Source: a bacterium (GTDB lineage: Bacteria > Bacteroidota > Bacteroidia > B-17B0 > Aurantibacillaceae). From it: a stretch of DNA of 64,000 nucleotides. Positions 53,686 through 58,137 of the stretch are shown here, in pieces (positions within the stretch are counted from its first letter, which is position 1; each line of letters begins with the position of its first letter). The stretch covers positions 124,001 through 188,000 of the forward strand of contig JAQSCW010000018.1 in the NCBI GenBank assembly GCA_029945625.1, read 5' to 3'. Below the pieces are notes generated by a model that did no database searches, was not told where the DNA came from, and saw only the letters and a list, made by a program, of their open reading frames with translations. A program made the translations under genes and the position numbers.

Positions 53686-55266
53686 ATGACCTTACAAGAA
53701 GAAATAAAAAGACGCCGCACCTTTGCTATCATTGCCCACCCCGATGCAGGAAAAACGACCTTAACTGAAAAACTGCTGCTCTTCGGTGGCGCTATTCAAT
53801 CGGCAGGGGCGGTGAAGTCTAATAAAATAAAGAAGTCCACTACCTCCGATTTTATGGAGATTGAAAAGCAAAGAGGAATCTCCGTTTCTACCTCGGTGAT
53901 GGCGTTTGACTATAAAAATTACAAAGTAAATATTTTAGATACACCCGGACACGAAGATTTTGCGGAAGACACTTATAGAACTTTAAGCGCGGTTGACAGT
54001 GTGATTATGGTAATTGACTGTGTTAAAGGTGTGGAACCTCAAACTCGAAAATTACTGGAAGTGTGTCGCATGCGCCATACGCCGGTGATTGTGTTCATTA
54101 ATAAACTGGACCGTGAAGGACAAAATCCATTTGATCTGCTTGACGAAATTGAAAAAGAATTAAAAATAAAGGTCCGCCCCATGACCTGGCCCATAGGCAT
54201 TGGAAAGTCATTTAAAGGTGTTTACGATCTAAGTGGCAGTTCGTTGAACTTGTTTCAGGGTGATAGCAAAACCACTGTTGAAGAAACACTAAGGATCACC
54301 GATATCAACGATCCCATTATAGATAAACGCGTGGGGGCCGATTTTGCCAAACAATTGCGGGCCGATGTGCATCTCATCGATGGCGTATACGATCCTTTAG
54401 ATCCGCAAAAGTACCTGGAGGGCCACATCAGTCCGGTCTTTTTTGGAAGTGCCGTGAATAATTTCGGGATCAACGAATTGCTCGATTGTTTTGTGGAGAT
54501 TGCGCCCTATCCCAAAGATCGCGAAACAGAAGAAGGTATGGTACATCCCGACGATACCAAATTCAGCGGCTTTATTTTTAAGATCCATGCCAACCTCGAT
54601 CCTAAACATCGCGACAGGATTGCGTTTTTAAGAATTTGTTCCGGAAAATTCGAGCGTAATAAATATTATTTTAATGTGCGTGAAAAAAAGCAATTACGTT
54701 TTAGTAATCCCACCGCATTTATGGCTCAGCAAAAATCGGTAATTGATGAAGCTTTTCCCGGCGACGTGATTGGTTTATACGATGCCGGTAATTTTAAGAT
54801 TGGTGATTCTCTCACCGAAGGAGCCTCCTTGCATTTTAAAGGCATTCCAAGTTTTTCGCCCGAATTGTTTCGCTATGTTACCAATATGGATCCCATGAAA
54901 ACCAAACAACTTCAAAAGGGATTGGAACAATTAACAGATGAAGGTGTGGCGCAATTGTTCACCAAAAAAGCCGACGGCCGCAAGGTAATTGGTACTGTGG
55001 GAGCCCTACAATTTGAAGTGATCCAGCACCGTTTAAAATCCGAGTACAATGCAAGTGCCAGTTTTGATCAATTAAATTTATACAAAGCACTTTGGATTAG
55101 TTGTGAGGACAAAAAGAAGATGGATGCGTTTATGCTCGATCGCAGTGCCCACATTGCGTATGATAAAGAGCACCGTCCTGTATTTTTGGCGGAGAGTCCC
55201 TGGTTATTGCAAATGGCTCAGGAAAAATTTCCGGATATTCAATTTCATTTGAAAAGCGAGTTTTAG
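53686..55266 (+). CDS. prfC: Peptide chain release factor 3
   Basis: This 526-residue translational GTPase recycles RF1 and RF2. G1 is AHPDAGKTT, switch segment [14 protein letters not shown]3 DTPGHEDF and G4 NKLD. The later part ([25 protein letters not shown]) is typical RF3 rather than EF-G. Length is normal. Its last 33 nt (55233-55265) recur once at 57409-57441, beyond a T9SS gene, so the downstream region appears to have been rearranged or inserted here. Confidence 0.96.
55233..55265 (+). repeat. Left copy of a 33-nt direct repeat: end of prfC
   Basis: This matches 57409-57441 at 32 of 33 positions; the one difference is A to G at 55254, a synonymous Lys codon change. It covers the last ten codons of prfC plus two stop-codon bases. 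Confidence 0.8.
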
Positions 55267-55301
55267 ATTTTCCATTTTAGGGAATAAAATGGGTCAAGCG
55301 G

Positions 55302-55521
55302 AAAAGCCGGGGAGAAAGTTTTTGGGCGTGCCCCCGCCTTTCTTTTTTTATTCCGTTTGGCGGGGTCGCGCTTTCCGTTCCAAGTCCTCGCCACGCAAAG
55401 AGACAGGCGTGGCTGTGGGCTTTCCACTGCAATCGCTCACGCAGCAAACCACTTGTTTCCATTTATAAAAAAAATCCAAGGAATAAATTAGATGCATTTC
55501 CCCAACAATTCCGATTGATCC
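55302..55521 (+). repeat. Dispersed three-hairpin repeat, copy B
   Basis: This 220-nt copy lacks the 58-nt insertion of copy A at 35952-36230 and is otherwise nearly identical. Hairpin I: CCCCGCC 55332-55338 with GGCGGGG 55359-55365. Hairpin II: GCCACGC 55390-55396 with GCGTGGC 55407-55413. Hairpin III: GTGG 55415-55418 with CCAC 55424-55427. It begins 36 nt after the prfC stop. Like copy A, it lies downstream of a plus-strand GTPase gene and faces a minus-strand secreted-protein gene. Confidence 0.75.
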
Positions 55522-55531
55522 AAAAAAATCA

Positions 55532-55570
55532 ACACAGAGGAAACAGAGTTACTGAGTAACACAGAGAAAA
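55532..55570. repeat. ACACAGAG-type short periodic repeat
   Basis: ACACAGAGGAAACAGAG, then GTAACACAGAGAAAA, repeat the same word. It resembles the CAGATT-type tracts elsewhere in the window. Together with copy B it occupies the 351-nt gap between prfC and the T9SS gene. Confidence 0.45.
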
Positions 55571-55617
55571 TTTATGCTGTTTGAAAGTGCATTCAGATTG
55601 ATTGAAGCGAAAAAAAA

Positions 55618-57318
55618 TTACTCTTTCACGAGCTTAAACACCTCAGATTTCTTCTGAGATTGTATTTTCAAATAGTAAATGCCCGCCACCAAAGAAGATA
55701 TATCAATACTCGCGGAGCCATCTTTAAATTCCCTTCTTAGTATTTCCCTTCCGTTCAGATCACATAAAATTATTCGGCAGTTTTCAATACCCGCATTTTT
55801 TAGTGTGAATATCCCACTAGTTGGATTTGGAAATATGTTTACGATTTCATGGGATACTGTTTTATTCAAATTTGTGCAGGGATCAACCACCAAACTCAAT
55901 GTCGTTTCTCCAACGCAGCCATAACTGTTTGTGCCACGAAGTGTAAAGGTGGTACTTGAAAGAGGGTTTAACAAGAGCGAGGGGTCGTTTGAACTAGTTC
56001 CGTCATACGACCAGGTGTAGGTGAGAGCACCGCCCCCGTCTAAGGCTATTTCCTGGGTGGCGCAAATGGTAGAATTGACCGGACTCAAATTAATGCTCAT
56101 AACAGGAAGCGGAAAAACGTAAACAGTTGTAAATTTTTTCGACACACATCCGTTGGGGTTGAGACTTGTAACAGTATAGGAAGAATTGGAAGTCGGGTTC
56201 ACGGAAATGGTCGGTGATACGGGTCCGTTTACCCATGTATAACTGCTTACGCCCGACGCCGACAGGGTAATAGATGCTCCCTTACAAACACCCGGAATAG
56301 CCGGGCTTACCACAATGGGAAGAGTTGGCAAGATGGTGAGGGTAACATTTTTGTAGGTTGAGCAACCGAAAGCATTCGTCCCAATTACGGTATAGGAACT
56401 TGTTGAAGAAGGGGTAACAGTAACACTGTTTCCAATACTACCGTTACTCCAGGTATACGAATTTGCTCCAGAGGCCGACAGTACCGCTGGTTCGCCAGCG
56501 CAAACAACCGAAGGGTTGGCGAGCACCTGCACCTGAGGTGTGGGATTGACAACAAAATTATAATAACAGGTGTATTGGCAACTGCTACTCAGATAACCCA
56601 TAACGCAATAAACAGAGGGAGTGAAAGAAGCACTAAGTGTCATTGTGGTACTGGGTAAAAAGGAGCCGTTGCTCCAGGAATAAGTATTGGCAGGTGAACA
56701 GGCGGTTAAATTAACATTCTGACCTTCACAAATTGTGAAGTTATTCGGTGACGGGGGTATGCCGCTGGGGCCACACACCTGCGTAATTGAAAAGTCATCA
56801 AAGTTGAGATATTGAGACGTGCCCGTGTTGCTGCCTATACCCCTGATTGCTGCATAATAGGTGCCTGTTCCGGGAACAACAAATGTGCCGGACAAAAGTG
56901 AATATGCTGAGCTGATTACCGGACTGCTGGCTGAGGCAACCGCTACCATGCCTGAAGCGGACTGATTTTGTCCGATCATGATTGACAGGTTTGACCAATT
57001 TTGACCGCCGGTATTGTCGGTCATGTAAAATAAAGCAGCAGAATAGGTGGTCCCGGCATTTAGCAGAATTGCTTTTGAAAAAAAATAGTTCGTTCCGCCC
57101 GGGTTGTAATAAAATGCCGCGTATTTAGGTGCCGTGGTAAAAGTTAAGCAGGATATACTCGGACTTGATGCCGTCCAGCAAGCGGGCATTTGATTGTTCT
57201 GCGAAATTCCCTGAAAACCTTCATAATAGGGAACTGATGCTGCAGTACATTGGGCCCGCAAATCGAAATGAGTGCCAAGTAGCACAAAGAGAAATATAAA
57301 AGTGTAAATTGTTTTCAT
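55618..57318 (-). CDS. Secreted Ig-repeat protein with T9SS type-A sorting domain
   Basis: This 566-residue protein has a signal peptide (MKTIYTFIFLFVLLGTHFDLRAQ). An N-terminal jelly-roll or MAM-like domain (about 25-190: PYYEGFQG, MPACWTASSP, YLNFDDFSI) is followed by four Ig-like repeats with cores such as AVLSASGANSYTWSNGS and ITLSASGVSSYTWVNG. The T9SS tail is VNIFPNPTSGIFTLKN, ending GIYYLKIQSQKKSEVFKLVKE. The repeats resemble those in the two LamG proteins. The start MKTIYTF is preferred to an ATG 21 nt earlier because it begins the signal peptide. It lies inside the segment bounded by the two copies of the prfC tail. Confidence 0.88.
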   Translation of the reverse strand: MKTIYTFIFLFVLLGTHFDLRAQCTAASVPYYEGFQGISQNNQMPACWTASSPSISCLTFTTAPKYAAFYYNPGGTNYFFSKAILLNAGTTYSAALFYMTDNTGGQNWSNLSIMIGQNQSASGMVAVASASSPVISSAYSLLSGTFVVPGTGTYYAAIRGIGSNTGTSQYLNFDDFSITQVCGPSGIPPSPNNFTICEGQNVNLTACSPANTYSWSNGSFLPSTTMTLSASFTPSVYCVMGYLSSSCQYTCYYNFVVNPTPQVQVLANPSVVCAGEPAVLSASGANSYTWSNGSIGNSVTVTPSSTSSYTVIGTNAFGCSTYKNVTLTILPTLPIVVSPAIPGVCKGASITLSASGVSSYTWVNGPVSPTISVNPTSNSSYTVTSLNPNGCVSKKFTTVYVFPLPVMSINLSPVNSTICATQEIALDGGGALTYTWSYDGTSSNDPSLLLNPLSSTTFTLRGTNSYGCVGETTLSLVVDPCTNLNKTVSHEIVNIFPNPTSGIFTLKNAGIENCRIILCDLNGREILRREFKDGSASIDISSLVAGIYYLKIQSQKKSEVFKLVKE

Positions 57319-57408
57319 GGGTTTTATTTTAGTTTCCATAGCCCGGGTTTAAAATTACGGATGCTGTGCTCACTCCATTAAAGGTAGTTAAAATATGGCA
57401 TGAATGCA

Positions 57409-57441
57409 GGATATTCAATTTCATTTGAAGAGCGAGTTTTA
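57409..57441 (+). pseudogene. Duplicated 3' tail of prfC
   Basis: This is 32/33 identical to the last bases of prfC and still in frame after an ATG at 57404, giving [12 protein letters not shown] and stop TAA. The codon change AAA to AAG is silent. It is too short to be a functional gene and is best read as the right end of a duplication or insertion that displaced the original sequence downstream of prfC. Confidence 0.75.
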
Positions 57442-57464
57442 ATGGGATTTCATTAGGCATTGCC

Positions 57465-57700
57465 AATACTGGGAGCCAAGAGCCAAGACTTGTTCTGAGA
57501 AGAACAATGGATCATGAAATTCTGTCTTGGTTCCCTTTTCTCTTGATTCCTGCATCCCTTTTATAGTTAGTCAAGAGCCAATACCAAAGAGAGTCAAGAC
57601 GGCACCGTGGGGTAAATCCAATTCTCCAAATTCATTCTTGCTTCTCTTCGGTCTTGATTCCTGCATCCCTGCAATAAATTCAGCAAGAATCCCCAAGCCC
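57465..57700. repeat. Low-complexity repeat region with two exact copies of TCTTGATTCCTGCATCCCT
   Basis: The 19-nt word occurs at 57541-57559 and 57652-57670. Around it are related words in both orientations (AGAGCCAAGACTTG, TCAAGAGCCAATACC, GAGTCAAGAC). The 492-nt gap from the T9SS gene to sufA has no supported gene other than the prfC-tail copy. Confidence 0.55.
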
Positions 57701-57728: not shown

Positions 57729-57760
57729 TTTGATTATGAGTAGGATTTATGGTATTTTTG
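57729..57760 (+). promoter_or_regulatory. Bacteroidota promoter for the SUF operon
   Basis: TTTG at 57729-57732 and TATTTTTG at 57753-57760 are 20 nt apart, a complete -33/-7 pair. The leader to sufA is about 45 nt. No obvious iron-responsive site was identified by eye. Confidence 0.7.
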
Positions 57761-57810
57761 TGCTTAATTAGAATCAATCTAATTTATAATTCATTTAAAA
57801 ACAAATAGTT

Positions 57811-58137
57811 ATGATCACTGTAACGGAAAATGCCAAAAGTCACGCCATCAATTTAATTAAAGAAGAAAATAGGCCGGCAGATACCTTTATTCGCGTAGGA
57901 GTAGATGGAGGAGGTTGCTCGGGATTATCATACCGCCTGGAGTTTGACAACCTCATTAAAGAAGGAGATCAGATGTTTGAAGATAAAGGCATCAAGATTG
58001 TGGTTGACCGCAAAAGTTTTTTATACCTAGTTGGCACCGAATTGGAATATACCGGCGGACTGAACGGCAAAGGATTTATTTTTAAAAATCCCAATGCCAG
58101 TCGTACCTGTGGTTGTGGAGAAAGTTTCTCGGTATAG
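57811..58137 (+). CDS. sufA: A-type iron-sulfur carrier protein
   Basis: This 108-residue protein has the three conserved cysteines of the HesB/IscA/SufA family: C36 in GGGCSGLSY, and C100 and C102 in TCGCGESF. It carries or transfers Fe-S clusters to apoproteins. Placement as first gene of the SUF operon fits SufA, though ErpA or IscA naming cannot be excluded from sequence alone. Confidence 0.93.
   Translation: MITVTENAKSHAINLIKEENRPADTFIRVGVDGGGCSGLSYRLEFDNLIKEGDQMFEDKGIKIVVDRKSFLYLVGTELEYTGGLNGKGFIFKNPNASRTCGCGESFSV

Follow-up and report, generated by a model that had tools for sequence, protein, structure and literature searches.

SXT/R391 elements reportedly integrate at prfC, at the 5' end of the gene. 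SGI1 lies at trmE (PMC8409611). Homology-assisted illegitimate recombination is treated in PMC2884548, whose passages on variable segments name both events at short repeats and illegitimate joints assisted by homology; the short class described there covers within-species segments of 20-500 bp, 10-18% of which have flanking repeats, most of them under 30 bp. Here we describe a 2.1-kb segment in the spacer between prfC (peptide chain release factor 3) and sufA in a genome of the Aurantibacillaceae (GCA_029945625.1, contig JAQSCW010000018.1, positions 124,001 to 188,000; this whole stretch of 64,000 nucleotides is called the window). The segment carries a type IX secretion system (T9SS) cargo gene and is bounded by two copies of the last 33 nt of prfC. 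We favour, at about even confidence, the explanation that this lineage-specific insert arose from one accidental (illegitimate) joint and not through a dedicated integrase.

The copied prfC end and the prfC-sufA spacer in relatives

The identity of prfC is established by Pfam matches to GTP_EFTU and RF3_C and by full-length orthologues in congeners that are 86-92% identical. The two copies of its end (Table 1) agree at 32/33 positions, have the same orientation and lie 2176 nt apart, start to start. A pattern search of the whole genome (4.12 Mb, 55 contigs) allowing up to three mismatches found the 33 nt at two forward places and no reverse place, and a reversed control pattern gave no match. 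The observation of an earlier note on this DNA, that the end of prfC recurs once on the same strand with a single silent change, is thereby confirmed, and membership of a genome-wide repeat, which that note had named as grounds for refutation, does not apply. The right copy reads through 12 codons to a stop and, since an in-frame TGA directly precedes its ATG, it is a 12-codon remnant of prfC, running from ATG to a proper stop as the earlier note had described. Similarity between the copies breaks off sharply at both edges of the 33 nt, and their flanks show no significant similarity over 60 nt upstream (p 0.71) or 60 nt downstream (p 0.08).

Direct repeats were scanned in contigs C18 and C2 (585 kb) and in 30 T9SS loci (score at least 22, spacing up to 8 kb, open reading frames (ORFs) of at least 80 aa). 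The prfC-end repeat scored 30, and two first-order Markov controls for the two contigs gave one repeat of 19 and none, respectively. No other clean two-copy repeat had a copy at an ORF 3' end. The other four gene-end hits all belong to one multi-copy cluster (C2:349-355 kb) by an 84-aa ORF, one of them being the same cluster met again in the overlapping locus L135. This cluster (G000:C2:349254-355471) has spacings of about 153-155, 308 and 370 nt, lies beside a T9SS gene and reaches the contig end.

To place the segment, 36 relatives of the genus were searched initially, three of which (G005, G024, G032) gave no true prfC match. DNA downstream of prfC was then compared in 36 genomes (33 of the genus and 3 of other families; G061 and G062 stood outside this set), together with further stretches on the sufA side, including that of G060. 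prfC is followed by sufA in the window and in ten relatives (G001, G004, G009, G010, G011, G013, G019, G022, G030, G060). Five of these relatives have a single prfC end, a short spacer and then the sufA promoter, the spacers measuring 164 nt in G004, 148 in G013, 210 in G019, 172 in G022 and 151 in G060. A single prfC tail in relatives lacking the insert was the check proposed by the earlier note, and it was found in these five at the level of species. Because five congeners have this arrangement, the 2.1-kb segment is, on sequence comparison, a gain in the lineage of the window. G004 had been considered as a second case of a copied gene end, having a 54-residue prfC end before sufA on a separate contig; an overlap of 149 identical nt between the contigs shows that this is a single prfC gene split in assembly, and G004 is therefore grouped with the short-spacer relatives.

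In a prfC tree of 36 rows, G060 not among them, the ten rows in which prfC and sufA are adjacent, the window included, fall in one clade of 12 rows (support 91/84, under the program's own mark for firm support). The remaining two rows are G017, whose contigs end there, and G035, in which prfC and sufA are not adjacent. In the other members of the genus no sufA was present in the DNA fetched after prfC, which in G029 (about 0.6 kb) and G031 (3.2 kb) was limited by contig ends.

The other five relatives with adjacent prfC and sufA have long spacers, of 1974 nt (G001), 2072 nt (G009), 1521 nt (G010), 7184 nt (G011) and 2546 nt (G030), and the window has 2544 nt. One or more minus-strand T9SS cargo genes directly follow prfC in G010, G030 and G011 (loci L032, L033 and L037); their sorting domains score 29.6, 30.9, 41.6 and 47.4 bits (cut-off 27). 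The cargo of the window gave no tblastn match to these three loci at 1e-5; their cargo genes were compared among themselves by Pfam domains only. The insert of G009 encodes a PMT_2 protein; in G001 the encoded protein is on the plus strand and has no Pfam match. Since five relatives carry differing inserts, the prfC-sufA spacer is likely to be an insertion hotspot.

Counting the window, an insert could be read in six species, and in four of them minus-strand T9SS cargo comes right after prfC. A wider conjecture, which we consider unlikely, is that this slot is a preferred site of T9SS cargo exchange in the genus, where incoming alleles anchored by prfC homology would be swapped between neighbouring species and the 33 nt would be a fossil joint. 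No paper title on a prfC-sufA hotspot was among the literature matches listed, which is not proof of absence.

Possible origins of the repeat

In the scheme we favour, a molecule carrying prfC and cargo downstream of it would have paired by homology within the prfC of a chromosome in which prfC and sufA were adjacent and free of cargo. The far end of the incoming molecule would then have been joined by chance within the final 33 nt of the resident prfC. The outcome would be one intact prfC, the cargo, and a leftover 33-nt end of the resident gene before sufA. The joint, the donor and the order of these events are inferred. The repeat ends at the stop codon, as it would if the homology between two prfC alleles ended there, and its two differences, a silent A/G change and TAG against TAA, look like differences between alleles. 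No Ku homologue was found in the genome, which makes end joining by Ku unlikely. The genome encodes a ComEC-type Competence domain, so that DNA uptake is possible, though not proven.

Over their coding parts the two copies are identical at 29/30 bases, and 27 of 28 relatives match either copy at 22-27/30. The duplication is therefore probably recent relative to most of the splits between these species. The exception is G021. A foreign donor was considered in view of its prfC end and rejected, as that end matches the left copy closely too and the sequence after the stop gave no significant match; by our own estimate so close an agreement could possibly occur by chance among 28 relatives. A search for exact matches among named genomes in a public collection gave one other record, JAJONO010000076.1. 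The spacers of G019 and G022 share an apparent match, ATTGCCAA, with the sequence that follows the right copy; this too was dismissed, control slices giving p 0.09 and 0.34, respectively. Among 19 relatives the best match to the sequence after the right copy was in G003 (p 0.03), as expected by chance in that number.

Several points weigh against a joint with a resident prfC end. The nearest relative, G017, is only 81% identical in prfC DNA and 77% over the sufA region, and no compared relative is close enough to show the donor or the recipient. No donor tract was seen along prfC: when the gene was scanned lengthwise for recombination there was no clear switch of nearest relative, several alternating at similar identity. 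The sequence after the right copy showed no significant similarity to the spacers after prfC in four of the short-spacer relatives (those other than G060), the best p value being 0.09 (G019), and the right copy lies 368 nt upstream of sufA compared with 148-210 nt for the prfC end in short-spacer relatives. Given this flank mismatch and distance, the right copy is no more than a candidate for the resident prfC end. An illegitimate joint also leaves the left edge of the repeat to accident. The prfC end of G021 agrees with the right copy at 30/30 and with the left copy at 29/30, and G022, outside the comparison of 28 relatives, is 94% identical to the right copy across the 33 nt; because these ends match so closely, the likeness of the two copies by itself dates the event only roughly. 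Finally, judged by eye, the plus-strand protein of G001 resembles the last protein of the G011 insert, and the response regulators of G030 and G011 look alike. As a result, some insert content may be shared by descent, and not every insert need be an independent gain.

The lack of similarity between the flanks of the copies agrees with another origin, in which the cargo was already present and template switching by a polymerase during break repair later placed a 33-nt copy of the prfC end in the spacer between cargo and sufA. One small event would suffice, the repeat would be uninformative on how the cargo arrived, and other species do have cargo at the same spot without a copy of the prfC end. 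Against such a filler copy, both the end at the stop codon and the retained orientation of prfC would have to be coincidence, and we consider it somewhat unlikely.

The earlier note had read the geometry as integration at a gene 3' end, with a local accident as its alternative. The segment would then be a remnant of a non-autonomous element with a 33-bp core at the 3' end of prfC, its integrase acting in trans or lost. Direct repeats including the gene end do lie on both sides, the reading frame is restored, relatives have a single-copy empty site (in other species, and predicted by the rival models too), and six tyrosine-recombinase matches occur on other contigs of the genome. However, the ORFs of at least 80 aa in the segment include no integrase gene and contig C18 has no tyrosine integrase (PF00589), in line with the statement of the earlier note that none is present; serine recombinases were not searched. 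Nor was the core found in use by another element, either in the genome itself, where there is no third copy at up to three mismatches, or in the relatives' loci to about 10 kb after prfC; beyond these loci, the relatives' genomes were compared with the whole segment only.

Downstream of prfC no second prfC end was found in 35 relatives (32 of the genus and 3 of other families; G004 was skipped, and L031 of G017 and L040 of G029 offered about 216 and 558 nt), five of which have their own insert there. Their best ungapped matches to the prfC end scored 7-14, compared with 6-16 for an interior-prfC control and 30 in the window. The 868 nt upstream of sufA in G017 contained no copy either (best 16/33, the top random slices reaching 20-21). 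Five repeats were listed across 44 relatives' loci (421 kb), and none of them placed a copy of a gene 3' end between genes; one, from an outgroup and no higher than the threshold score of 20, links the 3' end of one gene to the interior of another. The suggestion that other cargo genes might be flanked by copied gene ends was not borne out in the 585 kb of the genome or in the 30 T9SS loci. With no comparable case in the DNA scanned, no tyrosine integrase on the contig and no terminal inverted repeats, we regard site-specific integration as quite unlikely, and judge a local accident the better of the two readings.

A direct repeat that immediately bounds an inserted segment could also be a target-site duplication, in which a fragment was captured at a staggered break that was then filled in, or the product of a tandem duplication and a later deletion. 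Insertion sequences usually make target-site duplications shorter than 33 bp, the tandem route requires two events, and the end at the stop codon would again be coincidence. There are no terminal inverted repeats (p 0.87 when the 60-nt ends were aligned locally) and no transposase, the only long ORF in the segment being the T9SS cargo. We hold duplication of either kind to be improbable, to the same low degree as integration. An assembly artefact joining two contigs through a short shared word is scarcely credible: the genome is a draft in 55 contigs, nine of which carry a Flavo-1-like repeat in roughly their first 215 nt, but the copies differ by one base, there is no third copy, and the order of prfC, insert and sufA is as in relatives.

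Content of the segment and the right flank

Between the copies, the ORFs of at least 80 aa are the cargo gene and an 81-aa ORF antisense within it. The cargo gene is complete and on the minus strand, as the earlier note had it, which the ORF and its Por_Secre_tail domain confirm; the protein gave no PADLOC family match. The genome has at least 150 Por_Secre_tail domains (150 of 224 candidates scored), so one T9SS gene at a given place is unremarkable. When the whole segment was compared with 40 genomes of the genus, no long match was found elsewhere apart from those to its dispersed repeat and to the sufA promoter; for the cargo the best stretch was 68% over about 260 nt, in G017.

Table 1. 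Features of the prfC-sufA region (positions in the window)
Feature	Position	Strand	Remarks
prfC (peptide chain release factor 3)	53686-55266	+	526 aa from the ATG common to relatives
Left repeat copy	55233-55265	+	Final 33 nt of prfC including first two bases of the TAG stop
Dispersed repeat with Flavo-1-like RNA match	55290-55526		RNA match on minus strand, 55360-55450
T9SS cargo gene	55618-57339	-	573 aa; Por_Secre_tail 48 bits (cut-off 27)
Right repeat copy	57409-57441	+	Silent A to G change; stop is TAA
Local repeat-rich stretch, right copy to sufA promoter	57462-57670		Families D1 and D12
Conserved sufA promoter region	57745-57810	+	Palindromic box ATTAGA..TCTAAT; matches before sufA in relatives
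SufA-type Fe-S carrier	57811-58137	+	Fe-S_biosyn domain; right neighbour of prfC in the clade

The repeat noticed earlier between the copies, where it was described as having three hairpins, is a member of a dispersed family with at least 39 places in the genome, this one included (40 of 117 candidates scored). Several hairpins are predicted for it (z -2.13; 6 of 200 shuffles fold equally well). Its match to the Flavo-1 RNA (RF01705) scores 36.7 bits, under the gathering score of 42, and no Flavo-1 match at the gathering score was found in the window, L149 or L167. A link between this repeat and the insertion was considered and rejected, since in the scans of C18 and C2 none of the family's other members was listed with a copied gene end. 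The genome has a single Y1 transposase match (G000:C29:49960-50202), which could be a candidate mobiliser of the dispersed repeat.

To the right of the segment, copies related to the local repeat-rich stretch are clustered at G000:C46:86851-87282. The palindromic box before sufA (57766-57790) also occurs in those spacers of relatives that were read, and is likely to be a putative regulator site of the suf genes.

Comparison with known systems

The copied prfC end is a real and probably recent scar at a likely insertion hotspot, and is ordinary in kind; nothing was found to indicate a new mobile element. It illustrates how a gene-end repeat can mimic an integration site without good evidence for one. 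The likely hotspot lies by a housekeeping gene, at a place where secreted-protein genes turn over; beyond that, the copy is a single scar of ordinary genome change.

With the SXT/R391 elements the locus has in common the name of the target gene, but it involves the opposite end of prfC and its segment lacks element genes. With SGI1, a genomic island at trmE (PMC8409611), it shares the 3' end of a housekeeping gene copied on each side while the gene stays intact; in contrast to SGI1, the segment here has no tyrosine integrase and is only 2.1 kb long, and no second element was found using the site. The variable segments in the passages of PMC2884548 likewise lack mobility genes and have a short flanking direct repeat without a known mobile element. 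The present segment differs from them in its length, which is outside the range of 20-500 bp, in its repeat of 33 nt and in being defined by comparison between species only. What the prfC-sufA insert appears to share with these segments is mechanism only.

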